In this document: piece after piece, positions 162 through 14,924 of the stretch
How the letters are laid out: the number at the start of each line of letters is the position of its first letter
How positions within the stretch are numbered: the first letter of the stretch is position 1
From: a virus
DNA length: 36,211 bases
Virus record (IMG/VR): IMGVR_UViG_3300031973_001571
Span: 1 to 36,211 of that record
Reading direction: 5' to 3' (one strand)
Made by a program: the position numbers and the translations under genes
The notes under the pieces: generated by a model
Told to the model about the DNA's origin: nothing
The model's input: the letters and a program-made list of their open reading frames with translations, nothing else
Database searches by the model: none

Positions 162-1853
162 TTGACGCGATTATACAGCTATATCCGATTTTCAACAGCA
201 GAACAGGCTGACGGCTCATCGTCAACGCGTCAAGCTGAGTACGCTGCGAAGTATGCGCTTGATAATGGTTTGGTGTTGGATGAGTCACTTTCGATGCGCG
301 ATGAGGGGCTAAGTGCTTATCATCAAACACATATTAAAAAAGGGGCGTTGGGAGTTTTTCTTCGTGCGGTTGAAGATGGTCTGGTACCAGAAGGTTCTAC
401 GCTAATTATTGAAGCGCTTGATCGGTTGTCTCGTGCTGAGCCGATTGTTTCACAAGCGTTGCTGTCTCAGATAGTTAATGCAGGCATTACGGTTGTGACT
501 GCGAGTGATGGCAAGCATTACGATCGTGAGTCGTTGCGTGCGAATCCTATGGATTTGGTGTATTCGCTGTTGGTATTAATTCGGGCTCATGAAGAATCTG
601 ATACTAAATCGAAGCGGGTTAATGCTGCATTGCGTATTGCTTGTGAGGATTGGATTAGCGGTAAAAAGCGATCGCATGTTCGTAATGGCAGGGCTCCGGC
701 TTGGTTTCGTGAAACGGGTAGTGCTGAGCCTCCGTTGTTTGAATTCATACCTGATCGTGTTGAGGTGCTGCGGGTTGCGATTCGGTTGTATATTGACGGC
801 TACGGTGTGCAGCAAATTCAGCAGCGCTTAAAAGAAGCGGGTTTGCAGTTTACGGATAAGCCACTGGTTAAAACGCATTTTCATAAAATCGTGAAGCGTG
901 AAGATTTAGCGGGTACCAAGATCATTAAGGTGGACGGTGAAGAATATCGGCTAGAAGATTATTACCCGCGTGTTTTAGATGATGCTGAGTATCAATTGCT
1001 GCAGTCGCGTTTGCGTTCTCGGGTGCGATCGCCAGCGAGTAATATACCTGGTGTAATTACGGGTGTTGGGGTTTGTTTCTGTGGGTATTGTTCTAGTTCG
1101 ATGGCCGGTATTAATAATATAAGTCGGGCGCGGGCTGATGGTTCGTTGTCTGATGGATCGCGGCGTTTAATTTGTAACGCTGCGAATGGTGTTGGTGGTT
1201 GTCCTGTTCCGAGTAGTTGTTCAATATCGCCTGTTGAGCGTGCGATTTTAAATTATTGCGCAGATCAAATGAGTTTGTCTGAGCTTGTGAATACCAGCAA
1301 TGAATTTGAATCTGTGCGTGCTAAGCAACTTAAGGTAGAAGCGGATCTGGCAAAGGCTAAGGCGCAAGTTGATAAATTAACAGATGCGTTGCTGCAAACC
1401 GATACGCCGCCATTGGCGTTGATGCGTAAGCAGCGTGAAATAGAAGATAGTATTGTTGTAATGGAAGCTAAGCGCGAATCGTTGGCTCAGCAATTACGAG
1501 TTGATGGCGCGAAAGTTAATAACGACCTGCTGAATGAATGGCATTCATTGTCGGGTTTGGTGTTGGGTTTAGATTTAGATGCTCGGGTTAAAGTACGTGA
1601 TTTGGTTGTGCGTACGTTTGAGCGAATTGAAGTTTATGTTCGTGGGTATTCTGCGAATCAAGAAGGGATTGCTGGACGTATTGCGGTTGAGGTGTTTGAG
1701 AAGAAGTTAGGCGTGGGCTCTCAAATTGGTAGTGCAAAGATTAATGAGAAAAACGGGCCGATTGACTTGGTATTGAAGTTTCGGAGTGGGGCGGTGCGCT
1801 TGCTTCGCATTGATCGCAAGAGTGGAGCTTGGCAAGCGCAGGTTGATTTTTAG
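162..1853 (+). CDS. int: Large serine recombinase (phage integrase)
   Basis: This 563-residue protein catalyses site-specific integration between attP and attB, and excision together with a directionality factor. The N-terminal resolvase domain shows YIRFS with the probable nucleophile Ser11 and the ALDRLSR block at 85-91. A recombinase domain follows (about 150-290). The zinc ribbon has Cys305, 307, 310, 338 and 347. A charged coiled coil spans about 383-455, as in other large serine integrases. The start is a TTG at 162 without a good ribosome binding site; an in-frame stop at 144-146 limits any alternative. The gene starts only 25 bp from the divergent rimO ATG and ends convergently, overlapping the next gene by 4 nt. 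No excisionase (RDF) was recognised, so the RDF is probably one of the unknown small genes. Confidence 0.95.
   Translation: MTRLYSYIRFSTAEQADGSSSTRQAEYAAKYALDNGLVLDESLSMRDEGLSAYHQTHIKKGALGVFLRAVEDGLVPEGSTLIIEALDRLSRAEPIVSQALLSQIVNAGITVVTASDGKHYDRESLRANPMDLVYSLLVLIRAHEESDTKSKRVNAALRIACEDWISGKKRSHVRNGRAPAWFRETGSAEPPLFEFIPDRVEVLRVAIRLYIDGYGVQQIQQRLKEAGLQFTDKPLVKTHFHKIVKREDLAGTKIIKVDGEEYRLEDYYPRVLDDAEYQLLQSRLRSRVRSPASNIPGVITGVGVCFCGYCSSSMAGINNISRARADGSLSDGSRRLICNAANGVGGCPVPSSCSISPVERAILNYCADQMSLSELVNTSNEFESVRAKQLKVEADLAKAKAQVDKLTDALLQTDTPPLALMRKQREIEDSIVVMEAKRESLAQQLRVDGAKVNNDLLNEWHSLSGLVLGLDLDARVKVRDLVVRTFERIEVYVRGYSANQEGIAGRIAVEVFEKKLGVGSQIGSAKINEKNGPIDLVLKFRSGAVRLLRIDRKSGAWQAQVDF
170..195 (-). 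promoter_or_regulatory. Candidate phage-borne promoter for the rebuilt rimO
   Basis: On the minus strand a perfect TATAAT occupies 175-170. A TTGAAA occupies 195-190, but the spacer is only 14 bp, so the -35 assignment is weak. The predicted start would be near 162, about 26 nt before the rimO ATG. The element sits inside the first codons of the integrase gene. Without some phage promoter here the rebuilt rimO would have no local promoter, which is why the match is worth recording. Confidence 0.3.
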
Positions 1854-2404: not shown

Positions 2405-3111
2405 TCAGCTTGCTCCATTTCTGCCAATACATGATCAATATTTTTATGGATAGCTTCAAAGTCGATTACCCATACCCATTCGTTTTTATTCCAAGATTTT
2501 GGATAGACAGAAGACCATAAATCCGCGAATGCGCCTCTACCACTGTGATGAAGAGAACTTTCACCGTCGTCATTTTGTAGATGGGTAAACCCGGTGCATA
2601 GTGGGCATCCATCGCTAGTGGTGAACGGATAAAACTTGATGCCTTCTTTTTTTGCGTCTTCTTCTGAAATATCTTGAATGCGCTCAACGCGAACGCTGTT
2701 AATTTTTAGTGTTAAGCGACTGGCCCAGCGCGGCATGTGGATTGATGGAATTCCACCGACGTATTCGGGATCGCCTCGATAAATCCAGTCGATATTATCA
2801 TTTTCATGGAGAGCATCATCAGCACCGAAGCGAAGGTCTAGGGTTCCATCTACCAGCAACTTTTCACGCACATAGATTAGGTCGCCAGCTCGCCCAAATG
2901 GACACATTGCTAAAACACTGCTTTTAGCATTTGGGTAAAACAATCCAGCGCCTTTCTTTGCTTCTTTTTTGGTTGCAGGAAATACCCAGCTTGGAAAAAC
3001 ATCAGATACAAAAGGCTGATGCTTAACGATCCTACGCGTCTGCACTTTATTTCCCGCAAGCAGGGCACGAACCATTTCTGAATTAAATATCATTGGGGTT
3101 GTTTTAATCAT
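2401..3111 (-). CDS. Phage ASCH-like protein (often annotated 'morphogenetic protein')
   Basis: The protein has 236 residues. The opening (PMIFNSEMVRALLAGNKVQTRR), the RWASRLTLKINSVRVERIQ stretch, DISEEDAKKEG, and the closing NEWVWVIDFE are typical of a widespread family in lambdoid prophages that resembles ASCH/PUA-like RNA- or modified-base-binding folds. The function is not established; the morphogenetic label in databases is doubtful. It overlaps both neighbours by 4 nt (ATGA), between the cytosine methyltransferase and the Acb2-like gene. That position hints at a role linked to modified nucleotides or counter-defence, which is inference only. Confidence 0.7.
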   Translation of the reverse strand: MIKTTPMIFNSEMVRALLAGNKVQTRRIVKHQPFVSDVFPSWVFPATKKEAKKGAGLFYPNAKSSVLAMCPFGRAGDLIYVREKLLVDGTLDLRFGADDALHENDNIDWIYRGDPEYVGGIPSIHMPRWASRLTLKINSVRVERIQDISEEDAKKEGIKFYPFTTSDGCPLCTGFTHLQNDDGESSLHHSGRGAFADLWSSVYPKSWNKNEWVWVIDFEAIHKNIDHVLAEMEQAE

Positions 3112-4721
3112 GCTGCTTGCTCCTGCTCTTTTGATTCTTTGTTTATATTTGCACGAATTAATGCTGCGAACGGTTCAGGTGCAACAGAATTTCCGCACAT
3201 GCGAACCTGCGCTTTTTTGCTTAGCTTTTTACCGTCAGAAGTTCGGTCATGGATATAGCCAGGTGGAAAAGATTGGGCTGCATAAAGCTCATGCGGCTCA
3301 AGCATTCGCATGCCGATATCAACTATCTGATAATCAACGCCTTTAACGGTTACTAAGCCAAAGCGATCGTTAGTGGTGATCGTGTGCAGTGGTTCGTCAA
3401 CACCTAGCCCGTCTTTTTCATTACCGTAATATTTCAGAAGGAATGCGCGCACTTCACCAATATGCAAGCCGCCTGCAGTGATTGTTGGCACTGGCTCATC
3501 GGTTGGGCTTCCTGTGCAGTTATTACGAAGCTTCAATAAATGAGAAGTCACTAGCGCATGATGATCTGTAGTGGTGATGGTATCGACTGGGTTGGTTAAA
3601 TTAATTCCAGCACCCGTATAGTTACCGCCATAGTGTTTCGCTAAAAAGGCTGTGACGAGTGCAAAGGTTCCACCTTTAGTTTGAGCTGTAATAGTTCTTA
3701 ACGGCTCATCAATTGGCATGTTGCGTTGATTGCTAGCGTTTGCGCATTCAGTAATGAATGGCGCGGCTTCAACTGGAGCAATAAACGGATTAGGGTTATC
3801 AATTACGAATTTCTTTAAGCCGCGAGCAATACGCTGCATTGTTTTTTCAGCAAGAGGGCGCTTACGATTAAATATCGATCTCACCGGCACACTCCAATCA
3901 ATGCATTCAGCGGCAGTGCGGTAAGGCTTTAATTTTCCTGATTGCACTTCAAGGCTATTTGGCTTGCCATGTGTTGGCTTTGCCCAGCAAATTTTTGATC
4001 CGTCTTTTTTGGCAAACATGAATAAACGTTTACGGGTTGTGGGTGCATTATTTTTACAAGCAACAACTTCATTCCAATCAATTGAGTAATTTAGCCCTTT
4101 CGAAAGCTTTAATTTAAGTTTGGTATTATGTTCAATACCCATAGCCACAACTGCTTCGCGCCATGGTGAATAATTGGTTGCTAATCCGGGCATCCTGCAG
4201 ATAGTTTGATTTGGCTTGATGCCCGTTGTAAGCGCTAATTGAAAAGCTTTGAATGTGACTCCTTTGCTGTCGGGGCAAGCATGGCCGCCAGGCAGCAATG
4301 GCCCCCAGCTTTTAAATTCTTCAACATTTTCAAGAGATAGGTTATCTGGTTCTTTTAAAAGCCCCCATTTGGGAACAATCCAAGCCAAGCCTCGAATGTT
4401 TTTATCCATTGGCTTCCCGCCGCGAGCCTTGCTGTGATGCTTGCAGTCAGGAGATGAGTGTACCCATTCGACTTCTCTGCCTTTGCAAGCTTTTATTATG
4501 TCAACATCCCAAACAGATTCGCAATAGTGCTCAGTATCGGGGTGATTAACCTTGTGCATGCTAATGGCTTCAGGATCATGGTTAATTGCAATATCAACAG
4601 GGCGACCAAAAGCCATTTCCATCGCTATTGAAGCACCACCACCACCTGCGAAATTATCTACGAGTAGTTTGTTTGGAAGGTGCAAACCTAGTTGGCCGCG
4701 GTGAGAGTTGTATACGTGCAT
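3108..4721 (-). CDS. DNA (cytosine-5) methyltransferase
   Basis: This 537-residue protein should transfer a methyl group from S-adenosylmethionine to C5 of cytosine in a specific DNA site. Motif I is DNFAGGGGAS at residues 22-31. The catalytic Cys93 lies in SPDCKHHSK, a variant of the usual PCQ motif seen in phage enzymes. ENVEEF (131-136) is the ENV motif. RKRLFMFA follows in the middle, and GNSVAPEPFAALI at the C-terminus is motif X. Between them are about four diverged repeats of the form DEP-L-TIT followed by FLxKxYGG, the probable target-recognition part. No restriction partner is adjacent, so it is an orphan phage enzyme, probably protecting phage DNA from host restriction. Confidence 0.9.
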   Translation of the reverse strand: MHVYNSHRGQLGLHLPNKLLVDNFAGGGGASIAMEMAFGRPVDIAINHDPEAISMHKVNHPDTEHYCESVWDVDIIKACKGREVEWVHSSPDCKHHSKARGGKPMDKNIRGLAWIVPKWGLLKEPDNLSLENVEEFKSWGPLLPGGHACPDSKGVTFKAFQLALTTGIKPNQTICRMPGLATNYSPWREAVVAMGIEHNTKLKLKLSKGLNYSIDWNEVVACKNNAPTTRKRLFMFAKKDGSKICWAKPTHGKPNSLEVQSGKLKPYRTAAECIDWSVPVRSIFNRKRPLAEKTMQRIARGLKKFVIDNPNPFIAPVEAAPFITECANASNQRNMPIDEPLRTITAQTKGGTFALVTAFLAKHYGGNYTGAGINLTNPVDTITTTDHHALVTSHLLKLRNNCTGSPTDEPVPTITAGGLHIGEVRAFLLKYYGNEKDGLGVDEPLHTITTNDRFGLVTVKGVDYQIVDIGMRMLEPHELYAAQSFPPGYIHDRTSDGKKLSKKAQVRMCGNSVAPEPFAALIRANINKESKEQEQAA

Positions 4722-10968: not shown

Positions 10969-11439
10969 ATGAGCGAATCACAAGAGTTGACGATTGAGCA
11001 GGCGATGTATTGGGCGACTAAAGATTACCCTGGTGGCACAACGGCAATAGCTGCAATTTATGGTTTTAATTCGGCTGTTATGAGTAATAGTTTGAATGTT
11101 AATAATATGCAGCATAAGCCAAATTTAAAGCATTTTGCGGCAGTGTTAGAAGCAACTCAGGACGCTCGTATTTTGAATGCGGTTGGTCAGTTGGCTGGCG
11201 GTGTTTTTATTCCGGTTGGAGATTTTGAGGGTGTCGCGGGTGATGATGCGATTTTAGATAATATGTTGTCGCTGGTTGAGTCTATTGGCAGTTATGGTCG
11301 TGTTGTTCGCGATTCATTAGCGGATGGTAATGTTAATCGTAAAGAGTGGCTTGAGTTGCAGAGTGCTGCGTTAGAGGGCATTAAGGCGATTCATTGTGTA
11401 TTGGCTAATTGCGAACAGATGCGCGGTGATTTCGAATGA
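10969..11439 (+). CDS. CII-like regulator (phage CP76 family)
   Basis: The 156-residue protein fits the CII/CP76 family of lambdoid and P2-like phages: AMYWATKDYPGGTTAIAAIYG with a helix-turn-helix, then SLNVNNMQHKPNLKHFAAVL, and LNAVGQLAGGVFIPV. In related phages such proteins activate lysogeny promoters or replication genes. It lies directly after cro, in the usual CII place, and overlaps the primase gene by 4 nt (ATGA). Its targets cannot be seen from the sequence. Confidence 0.82.
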   Translation: MSESQELTIEQAMYWATKDYPGGTTAIAAIYGFNSAVMSNSLNVNNMQHKPNLKHFAAVLEATQDARILNAVGQLAGGVFIPVGDFEGVAGDDAILDNMLSLVESIGSYGRVVRDSLADGNVNRKEWLELQSAALEGIKAIHCVLANCEQMRGDFE

Positions 11440-12503
11440 GCCGTGTTGATTCTAATTCGTGGGCAGATTGCACGATGGATCAAGTTCATGATGCGTTGCA
11501 GTTTATTAGTGCGGATAAATCTCGTGATGAGTGGGTTCGTGTTGGTATGGCTATTAAGGCTGAGTTTGGTGATGTAGGTTTTGATTTATTTAACGACTGG
11601 TCGATGAGCAGTGATAAGTACGATCGTAAAAACATGCGCGGAACTTGGAAGTCTATTAAAGCCAGTGGCGGTACGAATATTGGTTCGTTGTTTAAGAAGG
11701 CGATGGATGCGGGTTATTCGCATAAGAATATAGAGCGCGATAATGCGGCACAAATTGAGTATCAAAAAGAATTGGCTGCACGTAAAGCTAAGCGTGAAGC
11801 TGAGGCAGTTGCTGAGGCTTTGTGGCATAAGCGTATGCAAGATGTTGTTGCTGATGCGTCTTTGGCTGTTCTTGCTGAATTGGCGACGCATGACGCTGCG
11901 CCTTGTGAATATTTAGATAAGAAGCAGGTTAGGGCGTTTGGTGTTTTTGTTGCTGCGCGTTCGGTGCTAATGGTGGTGAATGATGAGGATTGTTCTTACC
12001 AGGTGTTGACGGGTGAAAAAAACATTAATGCTTTTTTCGCAACGGGTGCAGCTAAGTTAGATCATATTTCTGTTCGTAATATTAAACGCGGTTGTTTGGT
12101 GATTCCGATTTTTAATCGTGAGTTGTCGGTGCGTTCTCTTCAAATTATTTTTTCTAAAAATAAGTCTTTTCCGCGTCACGGTCAAAAGTCTGATTGTTTC
12201 TTTTTTATTGGCGATCAATCGTGTGCGTCTAATGTTTTGTGCGTTGCTGAGGGTTATGCGACGGCGGCCAGTGTTCACATGGCGACTGGGTATCCTGCTG
12301 TTGTTGCATTTGATGCTGGGAATATTGTGAAGGTTTCTAAAATTATGCGTGATATTTTTCCGGACGTTACGATTGTTGTTTGTGCGGATGATGATGATGT
12401 TAATGAGAAGACAGGTGTTAGCACGGGGATAGAAAAAGCAAATCAGGCGGCGAAGATTTGCGGCGGTATTGCTGTGATTCCTGAATTTGGTGAGGTGTTG
12501 TGA
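11436..12503 (+). CDS. DNA primase with PriCT-2 and Toprim domains
   Basis: The 355-residue protein makes RNA primers for phage DNA replication. Residues about 15-95 match the PriCT-2 domain (FISADKSRDEWVRVGMAIK, FDLFNDWSM, GTWKSIKASGGTNIGSLF). A charged helical linker (about 100-140) follows. A Toprim domain occupies about 265-345, with VAEGYATAASVHMATG (catalytic Glu) and VCADDDD (the acidic DxD pair). No zinc finger is present at the N-terminus. The Toprim region appears cut short at the C-terminus, and the missing TDFNDLH motif opens the next gene. Confidence 0.88.
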   Translation: MSRVDSNSWADCTMDQVHDALQFISADKSRDEWVRVGMAIKAEFGDVGFDLFNDWSMSSDKYDRKNMRGTWKSIKASGGTNIGSLFKKAMDAGYSHKNIERDNAAQIEYQKELAARKAKREAEAVAEALWHKRMQDVVADASLAVLAELATHDAAPCEYLDKKQVRAFGVFVAARSVLMVVNDEDCSYQVLTGEKNINAFFATGAAKLDHISVRNIKRGCLVIPIFNRELSVRSLQIIFSKNKSFPRHGQKSDCFFFIGDQSCASNVLCVAEGYATAASVHMATGYPAVVAFDAGNIVKVSKIMRDIFPDVTIVVCADDDDVNEKTGVSTGIEKANQAAKICGGIAVIPEFGEVL

Positions 12504-14218
12504 TGGTTGATAAATCAAAAAAGGAATTGACTGATTTTAATGATTTGCATCGTGCGCAGGGTTTAGATGTTGTTGCGGATCAGGTGAATGTTGCGATTGC
12601 GAAGGCGCGTTCTGTTTCTCCCGAACCCTCATTTGATGTGGCTGATTTTTCTGTTGGTGATGTGTTGGTTGGTGATATTCATGAATCTCCCGAACCCTCT
12701 TCGACTCCGGCGGGGGTTTCTGTTAGTCAGGGTGATGAAATTTCGCTTGAAGGTGCTTTAAAGCGTTATGCGTTGGTTTTTCCTAGCGGTGATGTTTGGG
12801 ACACTCATTCAAAGACCAAGGTTAAGGTTGCTGCGTTTCGTCGTGTGGTGGGCAAGAAAGTTGCGACTGATTGGTTGGACTCTGGTAGTAAGCGCCAGGT
12901 TAACGATTCGGATTTGAAAGCCGCTGCCGAGGCCGCCAAAAAAGCAGGGGTGCGGGGTATTGAGGATGCACTAGAACGTTTTACGTATCTTGAGCCGTCG
13001 CGCAATGTTTGGGATGGTAAGTTGCGTGAGATTGTGCCGATTGAGAATTTGAAGTGTGTGATGCCTGAGGCGTTTGAGTTTTGGAATAAATCGATTGAGC
13101 GCAAGGTGGTTTTGCAATCTAATTTGGTGTTTGATCCTTCTCAGGGTGTGGATCCAGAAACGCATATTAATATGTTTCGTGGTTTGCCGTTATCGCCTGC
13201 GCGTGATGATGATAAGTGTGCCGGTATTCGCAATATGATGTTTACGCTTTGTAATCATGATGATGATGTTTGGAGTTGGTTGAGTAAGTGGTTGGCTTAT
13301 CCGTTGCAGCATGTGGGTGCCAAAATGGATACGGCTGTATTGATGCATTCTGAAACTCAGGGCTCTGGTAAGTCGATGTTGTTTGATGGTGTTATGCGTC
13401 CGATTTATGGCGAGTACGGTGCTACGTTGGGACAGCATCAAATGGAATCTCAATATACTGATTGGCAGTCGAATCTTTTATACGGTTTGTTTGAAGAAAT
13501 TTTTTCTCGCAGTAAAAAGTATTCGCAAATGGGTACCGTTAAGCAGATGGTGACGGGCGATAAGACCAGAATTGAAAAGAAGTTTGTGAGTGGTTGGGAA
13601 GAAGCGAACCATATGAACTGTATTTTCTTGTCGAATGAGTTGCAGCCGTTTCCTGTTGAGCCTAGCGATCGTCGGTTCTGTGTGATTTGGCCGAATTGGA
13701 AGTTGCCTGAAGATCTTCAAAAGAAGGTGGGTTATGAGATTGAAAACGGTGGGCCTCAGGCTTTTATGGCTTGGTTGCAGTCGTTGGATTTGTCGGGGTT
13801 TGATCGTCGTACTAAGCCGCCAATGACGGACGCTAAGCGTCGGTTGATTGATTTTGGTTTGCCATCTTGGGATGTTTTCTTTCGTGAGTGGTCTGCTGAT
13901 AATTTAGATGCGCCTTACCATAGTTGTTTGAGTGATGATTTGTTTATTGTTTATGACAATTGGTGCAAAGCCGGTCATGAGCGAACTATTCCGCGTGAAA
14001 AATTCTCTAGTGCTTTGTCTGTAAAAATTCGGCGGCAGTCTTCTATTAAATATGATGATCCGGGTGGTTTGGGTCGTCATGCTCGTAAAGATCGTAAAGG
14101 TACGTTTTTCATCATTCATGAGAAACCTGAGGGTAAGGCTCAGAAGGAATGGTTGACGGGTTGTGTTAAGAATTTTAGGGATGCTGCAGGGTTGAGTGGG
14201 GACTTTGGTAATGAATAA
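12503..14218 (+). CDS. Phage replicative helicase (DUF5906/SF3-like NTPase)
   Basis: The start is the ATG at 12503 that overlaps the primase stop (TGATG), with GAGGTG upstream; a GTG at 12500 is the alternative. The first residues (KELTDFNDLHRAQGLDVV) are the tail of a primase Toprim region. The NTPase has Walker A ETQGSGKS at about 284-291, a Walker B-like LLYGLFEEIF about 40 residues later, and PSDRRF as arginine-finger segment. A C-terminal part (about 460-540) may bind DNA. It is the probable helicase that unwinds the phage origin, acting as a pair with the primase. Confidence 0.87.
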   Translation: MVDKSKKELTDFNDLHRAQGLDVVADQVNVAIAKARSVSPEPSFDVADFSVGDVLVGDIHESPEPSSTPAGVSVSQGDEISLEGALKRYALVFPSGDVWDTHSKTKVKVAAFRRVVGKKVATDWLDSGSKRQVNDSDLKAAAEAAKKAGVRGIEDALERFTYLEPSRNVWDGKLREIVPIENLKCVMPEAFEFWNKSIERKVVLQSNLVFDPSQGVDPETHINMFRGLPLSPARDDDKCAGIRNMMFTLCNHDDDVWSWLSKWLAYPLQHVGAKMDTAVLMHSETQGSGKSMLFDGVMRPIYGEYGATLGQHQMESQYTDWQSNLLYGLFEEIFSRSKKYSQMGTVKQMVTGDKTRIEKKFVSGWEEANHMNCIFLSNELQPFPVEPSDRRFCVIWPNWKLPEDLQKKVGYEIENGGPQAFMAWLQSLDLSGFDRRTKPPMTDAKRRLIDFGLPSWDVFFREWSADNLDAPYHSCLSDDLFIVYDNWCKAGHERTIPREKFSSALSVKIRRQSSIKYDDPGGLGRHARKDRKGTFFIIHEKPEGKAQKEWLTGCVKNFRDAAGLSGDFGNE

Positions 14219-14227
14219 TTATAAAAA

Positions 14228-14487
14228 GCCTAGTGTGCCTAGTGTAGGCCTAGTGTTTGAGATTATACCCAAGGTCATTATAAGCCTAGTGCTGTCTATG
14301 TTTGGAGTAAAAAGCCTAGGGGCCTAGTGTTTTTTTGTACGCGCGCGGGCGCGTATTATTTTAGTTATTTAATTAGTTTGTTTTTTTCTCTCGTGCGAGA
14401 GATATACCCCTAGGTACCCTAGGCCTATAGGCCTTTGTAGTATTCATCAGTGTTTCAGTGACCTAGGGGTATTTAAAAACACTAGGT
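14228..14487. repeat. CTAG-rich repeat region, candidate replication origin
   Basis: GCCTAGTG occurs at 14228, 14237, 14248, 14284 and 14322; GCCTAGGG occurs at 14314. More CCTAGG or CTAGG copies follow at about 14408-14424 and 14462-14467, and an inverted copy CACTAGGT lies at 14480-14487. In all there are ten CTAG tetramers within about 260 bp. A perfect palindrome GGCCTATAGGCC lies at 14422-14433. The stretch between includes AT-rich blocks (14354-14387). Iterons, an AT-rich block and a place directly after the helicase gene are what a phage origin looks like. Regulation of the Q-like gene is the main alternative. No gene was seen in 14219-14519. Confidence 0.5.
14338..14370 (+). terminator. 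GC-rich hairpin after helicase gene
   Basis: TACGCGC (14338-14344) pairs with GCGCGTA (14349-14355), leaving a GCGG loop. It is followed by TTATTTTAGTTATTT, an imperfect U-rich tract. It may end the rightward early transcript or be part of the origin. Confidence 0.4.
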
Positions 14488-14519
14488 CTACCCAAGGTCT
14501 TTGATTTAAGGATTTAAAA

Positions 14520-14924
14520 ATGATTAACCATATTCATGATCGTCTTGTTACTTGGGCTTCTGCAGCTCTGTCGGATACGTTGGGTGCATTAAGTTACTCA
14601 TCTTGCTTGCTTGAGATGGAAGACGCTTCTGAGCGCTCTCATGACACTGTAGCCTTGTGGTCGCCAGTCGTTGAAGAAGTCGAGAGGGCGGTTAATGATT
14701 TGCGCTATGAATTGCGTGAAACGATTAAGGCGATTTATTTAGAACCAGAGGCGACTATGCAGCAATCAGCAAAACGGTGTGGCTGTAGTGTTGCTACGTT
14801 GCGTCGTCGTCGTAATGAATCGCACGAAAAAATTGAAATCATTTTAGATTCTAATAAAACTTTTTTGTCTACGTTAAAAAATAGTTCTTGCAAACGTGAG
14901 CGATTAGTGGAAAATGTTTCCTAG
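14520..14924 (+). CDS. Q-like late-gene regulator
   Basis: The 134-residue protein has a helical acidic N-terminal half and a helix-turn-helix at about 75-105 (LEPEATMQQSAKRCGCSVATLRRRRNES), as in antitermination Q and ArpU-type late regulators and in sigma region 4. The position between the replication genes and the lysis genes is that of Q. A strong terminator follows directly, which Q would let polymerase pass. The family match is by pattern only, so transcription activation is possible instead. Confidence 0.65.
   Translation: MINHIHDRLVTWASAALSDTLGALSYSSCLLEMEDASERSHDTVALWSPVVEEVERAVNDLRYELRETIKAIYLEPEATMQQSAKRCGCSVATLRRRRNESHEKIEIILDSNKTFLSTLKNSSCKRERLVENVS

Follow-up and report, generated by a model that had tools for sequence, protein, structure and literature searches.

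A mirror-symmetric iteron array directly after the helicase gene of a temperate phage is a probable replication origin

The gap after the helicase gene

The window, by which we mean the whole stretch of DNA analysed, is a virus record of 36,211 bases (IMGVR_UViG_3300031973_001571). Judging from its gene content it encodes a temperate tailed phage, with a serine integrase, a terminase, a portal, a major head protein and tail proteins. The large serine recombinase/integrase is found at the left end (162-1853, plus strand). On the minus strand, 1850-2404 encodes a 184-aa protein with a C-terminal Acb2/Tad1 hairpin domain (PF24729, E 2e-18) and an extra N-terminal part, likely to act as a sponge for nucleotide signals of the host's CBASS/Thoeris defence, and 3108-4721 encodes a 537-aa C5 cytosine DNA methyltransferase, in the same phage as the C-rich iterons described below.

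Between the gene of a DUF5906 helicase (12500-14218) and that of a Q-like protein (14520-14924) lies a gap, 14219-14519. It contains a mirror-symmetric set of about 12 short putative binding sites directly after the helicase gene, the first iteron starting 10 nt past the helicase stop. The sites were read by hand from the sequence, with relatives (loci numbered L) as a guide. The features are as follows.

11436..12503, plus strand: primase subunit, PriCT-2 and Toprim (Pfam PF08707, E 2e-18, and Toprim; phrog_2249, DNA primase)
12500..14218, plus strand: DUF5906/NrS-1-like hexameric (SF3/D5-type) helicase (PF19263, E 5e-17; phrog_2249/4762)
13931..14188, plus strand: predicted C-terminal winged helix of the helicase, codons 478-563 (AF2 secondary structure)
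14228-14235, 14237-14244, 14248-14255, plus strand: left outer iterons, three copies of GCCTAGTG (exact matches; positions kept in relatives)
14268..14275, minus strand: inverted left site CCCAAGGT (ACCTTGGG), counterpart of 14461-14468 (inverted site at the same place in L063-L065)
14284..14291, plus strand: extra iteron GCCTAGTG between the outer and inner sets, outside the mirror (from sequence)
14314..14329, plus strand: left inner iterons GCCTAGGG and GCCTAGTG, spacing 8 (exact matches)
14338..14355, no strand: alternating GC tract ACGCGCGCGGGCGCGT (same place in nearly all relatives)
14356..14387, no strand: AT-rich block, at best 23/25 A/T, containing the mirror axis
14388..14401, no strand: dyad CTCTCGTGCGAGAG, local version of the TTTTTTCTCnCGCGAG element, next to the right inner iterons
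14408-14415, 14417-14424, 14425-14432, minus strand: right inner iterons, inverted, spacing 9 and 8 (same spacing in L001, L064, L065 and L073)
14461..14468, plus strand: direct site ACCTAGGG, pairing with 14268-14275 (same position in L063 and L065)
14480-14487 (CACTAGGT) and 14491-14498 (CCCAAGGT), minus strand: right outer iterons, inverted (compare L063/L065)
14520..14924, plus strand: Q-like regulator, downstream of the array (phrog_36, E 3e-7)

When left and right sites are paired by their coordinates, the axis of the mirror falls at about 14362-14373, within the AT-rich block, which would be the unwinding element. The GC tract could have a further role as a terminator stem, given its terminator-like match, and the TTTTTTCTCnCGCGAG element (14388-14401 and its equivalents) is possibly the site of a second, invariant factor. 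An Rfam search gave no match. The neighbours of the array are the primase and the helicase, which form one fused protein in many relatives, and among the ten proteins scanned around the array there was no match to a RepA or DnaA family. A DnaA or plasmid RepA-type iteron origin, which has an initiator gene of that type beside it, was thus rejected. The initiator would here be the helicase.

Exact matching found five copies of GCCTAGTG on the plus strand (14228, 14237, 14248, 14284 and 14322), one copy of GCCTAGGG on the same strand (14314) and one inverted (14417-14424), bearing out an earlier note on this DNA that had listed five exact iterons with variants. That note had counted one inverted copy; inverted copies do occur, and they are more numerous, the right half being a mirrored inverted set with a further site on the left at 14268. 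The other elements it had named, a palindrome GGCCTATAGGCC (14422-14433), a GC hairpin (14338-14355) and CTCTCG-TG-CGAGAG (14388-14401), are all present, the palindrome being simply the junction between the second and third right inner iterons.

The gap holds about 13 copies of one 8-bp word, and GCCTAGKG has a single further match outside it in the 36 kb window. Ten CTAG fall within 260 bp. When the window was simulated 300 times as a first-order Markov sequence, the densest 260 bp held 3.7 CTAG on average and 7 at most, in agreement with the claim that the density is not due to chance. The accompanying claim, that CTAG is among the rarest tetramers, fails for this genome (64 observed versus 70.4 expected), and rarity was dropped as evidence. 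CTAG as such is not rare here and is not the point of the array; its clustering stands.

A fixed frame with changing words

A nucleotide search against named phages gave essentially no match, and relatives were therefore sought by protein searches. With the helicase as query, 62 loci were recovered from genomes and hundreds from viral contigs. An array lies immediately 3' of the same DUF5906/NrS-1-like helicase in about 130 relatives (133 distinct helicase loci), a positive outcome for the check in relatives that had been proposed. Nearly every locus with enough sequence past the helicase stop has the same layout with another word, and at least 24 words occur across the relatives. The best 8-mer had a median of 11 copies (7-13) in 39 representatives, versus 4 (at most 7) in dinucleotide shuffles. 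Words were assigned as follows.

CCTAGGG: the window, L001, L063-L065
GGCCGGAGG: L073-L078
TTACCGGA: L068
TGCCGGA: L069
ACCCGTAAA: L079
TGCCGTTCA: L082
GTGCAGGGT: L004, L081
TGTGTTGGGT: most Pseudomonas loci, also the named phages Lodos and PG1
TGTGTCAGGT: L007
GACTAGGGT: L031
AGTTGAAG: L067
TCAGACAGA: Halomonas phage H4907

Stenotrophomonas phage S1 carries a GTGCGGG array, and looser arrays are found in the Moraxella phages Mcat4, 7 and 9. On the helicase-core tree, the 24 hand-made word classes need 24 changes.

The frame that stays constant consists of outer and inner iterons, the GC tract, AT-rich DNA, the CTCnCGCGAG element, followed by a second pair of inner and outer sets that mirrors the first. 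Spacing lists mirror each other in many representatives, such as L067 (9-11-11-43-8, a centre of 119, then 8-43-11-11-9) and L073 (11-11-44-8-9, a centre of 94, then 9-8-44-12-11). The mirror is not universal, the right outer iterons being direct in arrays of the Pseudomonas type. In most relatives, whatever their word, the GC tract occupies the left side of the core between the inner sets and TTTTTTCTCnCGCGAG the right side; Moraxella does not follow this pattern.

Two apparent exceptions, L083 and L099, have one extra small ORF between helicase and array (L083:7614-8075 and L099:7623-8075). Its product of about 150 aa looks like a free-standing helicase C-terminal winged-helix domain and is possibly a regulator or a second iteron reader.

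The protein that probably reads the word

An AlphaFold2 model of the helicase, built from a 50-sequence alignment, had a mean pLDDT of 82, mostly 86-95 in the C-terminal domain. It predicts a recognition helix at residues 499-507 and wing strands at 511-520 and 529-538. A fold search with this model matched the C-terminal region of NrS-1 (6k9c, E 1e-17), the SaPI5 primase-helicase (7ola, E 1e-8) and, more distantly, poxvirus D5-type helicases, while a sequence search matched NrS-1 only (6k9c/6k9e, E 9e-12). Domain (PF19263, E 5e-17) and fold (6k9c) together place the protein with the NrS-1-like/DUF5906 helicases. From the model and the comparisons below, the winged helix of codons 478-563 would be the iteron-reading domain.

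Two clean replacement events bear on this point. The primase-helicases of L002 and L093 (words TGTGCAGGGT and GCCACAGGT) share 93.8% identity, and their differences cluster beyond the recognition-helix motif TKFSLLLSVKE. Their DNA identity is about 95% as far as 200 nt upstream of the helicase stop and drops to 36-64% between -150 and +400. In the downstream gene it rises again, to 62-94% between +400 and +750, and the Q-like products match at 111 of 128 positions (87%). In loci L003 and L091 (words TATACAGGGT and TGTGCAGGGT), DNA identity is about 97% up to -300, falls to 34-76% between -300 and +300 and reaches 94-100% between +300 and +600; their Q-like proteins are 100% identical. The replaced part comprises the wing and what follows it in the first pair and the whole winged helix in the second. 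Judged from these sequences, a different word comes with a different winged helix, while Q, primase and helicase core do not change with it.

Wings were 40-71% divergent in all 15 close pairs whose words differ; these pairs are non-independent and fall into about five groups. Across the 1,458 same-word pairs the median wing divergence was 27%, dropping to 1% among the closest; some wings differed by up to 55%. This comparison replaced a correlation over 3,415 close pairs, in which, after removal of helicase core distance, the partial correlation with the word was 0.16 for the wing and 0.01 for Q; the wing value is weak because most pairs share one Pseudomonas word. The word TGTGCAGGGT is common to L002 and the Marinobacter-type loci, whose wing motifs are also similar (KSRERF...MFFV and KSRERF...MMFV) although their cores are very different, which fits a word read by the winged helix.

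A global sliding-window analysis covering all 39 representatives placed the strongest word correlation in helicase residues 70-99 (partial 0.52), not in the winged helix. These residues were dropped as a specificity determinant and the signal was read as a clade effect, because the region is nearly identical in L002 and L093 despite their different words. At residues ~85-105 (window ~12752-12814) two motifs, VEGTTxVWD and VPDGKIWD, alternate and correlate with word class across clades; this motif region is unchanged in the same pair.

The earlier note had proposed binding sites for the helicase/primase or for Q. The helicase is indeed the probable reader, and the Q part finds no support. An alternative is that the array controls late transcription as an operator or antitermination site bound by the Q-like protein, by CII or by the repressor; this would suit the position directly upstream of the Q-like gene and the terminator-like score of the GC tract. 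However, in both replacement pairs words differ and the helicase C-terminus is changed, whereas Q is 100% or 87% identical, and among close pairs Q distance carries no information on the word after correction for helicase core distance. Q was rejected as the iteron reader, and we regard an array for late control as highly improbable.

The array as a probable replication origin

From its sequence and by analogy with characterised systems, 14219-14519 is very probably a phage replication origin recognised by the helicase, and one that probably fires in both directions. An origin had been judged the most likely function from the sequence alone, and conservation of the array directly 3' of the helicase in about 130 loci supports this judgement. 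The helicase encoded just upstream would bind the iterons through its C-terminal winged helix. Two helicase assemblies, one on each mirror-image half, would flank the AT-rich centre, melt it and be loaded in opposite directions, and the adjacent primase would then start synthesis. The SaPI, PICI and Cch2 systems (PMC6092414, PMC7581432) are the models for the proposed binding and melting, for two helicases in opposite orientation and for replication in both directions. GC skew showed no switch and was uninformative, nearly all genes right of the repressor running one way. No mapped origin for this phage group was found in the open-access literature searched.

Plasmid iterons often have a control role too. 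This, and the fact that the outer sets are separable from the inner ones, would favour a site used mainly for copy control or incompatibility, or for regulation of the helicase gene itself, and a true origin lying elsewhere. An origin nevertheless accounts for the mirrored sites around AT-rich DNA and for the position 3' of the gene better than an autoregulatory site does, and the counterparts characterised in SaPIs and PICIs are origins (PMC6092414), which makes such a control site highly improbable. Chance or low-complexity clustering of CTAG, to which the window-wide count at expectation might lend itself, has next to no probability, given that the densest simulated 260 bp never exceeded 7 and that the array conserved in about 130 relatives already refutes it.

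The closest counterpart of the proposed helicase-recognised origin is the Rep-ori module of SaPIs and PICIs, including SaPI5 PriRep and the E. coli PICI origins. There the origin is directly 3' of rep, two iteron sets flank AT-rich DNA and the helicase C-terminal domain recognises them (PMC6092414, PMC7581432); a PICI rep-ori is able to replicate as a plasmid when cloned (PMC6092414). The phage array likewise lies immediately 3' of the putative initiator gene, in the same place in nearly all relatives (in two with an extra ORF between), its iteron sets flank AT-rich DNA, and the SaPI5 primase-helicase has a related fold (7ola). The 'new type' of phage origin put forward in the earlier note is therefore not supported, because the layout had already been described for these satellites (PMC6092414, PMC7581432). 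There are differences: the phage helicase is DUF5906/NrS-1-like and is accompanied by a Toprim primase, and the phage arrays have at least 24 words, a mirror order and, independent of the word, a GC tract and a CTCnCGCGAG element. Moreover, SaPIs and PICIs are satellites that need a helper for capsid and tail, whereas the array belongs to a complete temperate phage with its own terminase, portal, major head protein, tail proteins and integrase. The array would work like a PICI or SaPI origin; the element is not a PICI.

Other systems share single traits. NrS-1, whose helicase is the nearest solved one, has an AEP PrimPol that recognises TTTGGTTA as a priming site (PMC8718748), whereas the phage has a Toprim/PriCT-2 primase and iterons that track the C-terminal winged helix. 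In SCCmec the C-terminal domain of the Cch2 helicase binds repeats directly downstream of its own gene (PMC7581432), a similar arrangement, but with three AAGTG iterons, no mirrored 12-site frame and an A-family polymerase primase. PLE satellites of Vibrio phage resemble the phage array in that the DNA-binding domain of the RepA_N initiator and the origin are swapped together in nature (PMC8263062), so that initiator-origin module swapping was already known; they differ in their RepA_N domain, iterons of ~30 bp that are semi-palindromic, and an initiator that is not a helicase. The sites of the phage are the 8-bp words described above. The P4 alpha protein, compared by description, is like the phage system a Toprim primase-helicase with an origin-binding C-terminal domain, and is unlike it in having separated ori and crr.

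As a tentative generalization, which may well not hold, this phage lineage would use one fixed, two-fold symmetric origin frame with exchangeable words of 8-10 bp, and a specificity cassette made of the last 60-100 helicase codons and the array. Origin specificity is predicted to lie in as few as ~60 residues, and the replacement pairs resemble ready-made natural domain-swap experiments. The word-protein pairs, at least 24, are available for testing a recognition code and replicon compatibility between phages; if the relation of wing to word is regular, the code would be readable. Perhaps parasites or origin-targeting nucleases select for word diversity, a kind of selection shown for PLE satellites. 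The presence of a mirror-symmetric SaPI/PICI-like layout in complete temperate phages of Pseudomonas, Stutzerimonas, Marinobacter, Hahella and Oceanobacter, and more loosely of Moraxella, means that it is not exclusive to satellites, and suggests a shared source for both kinds of replicon.
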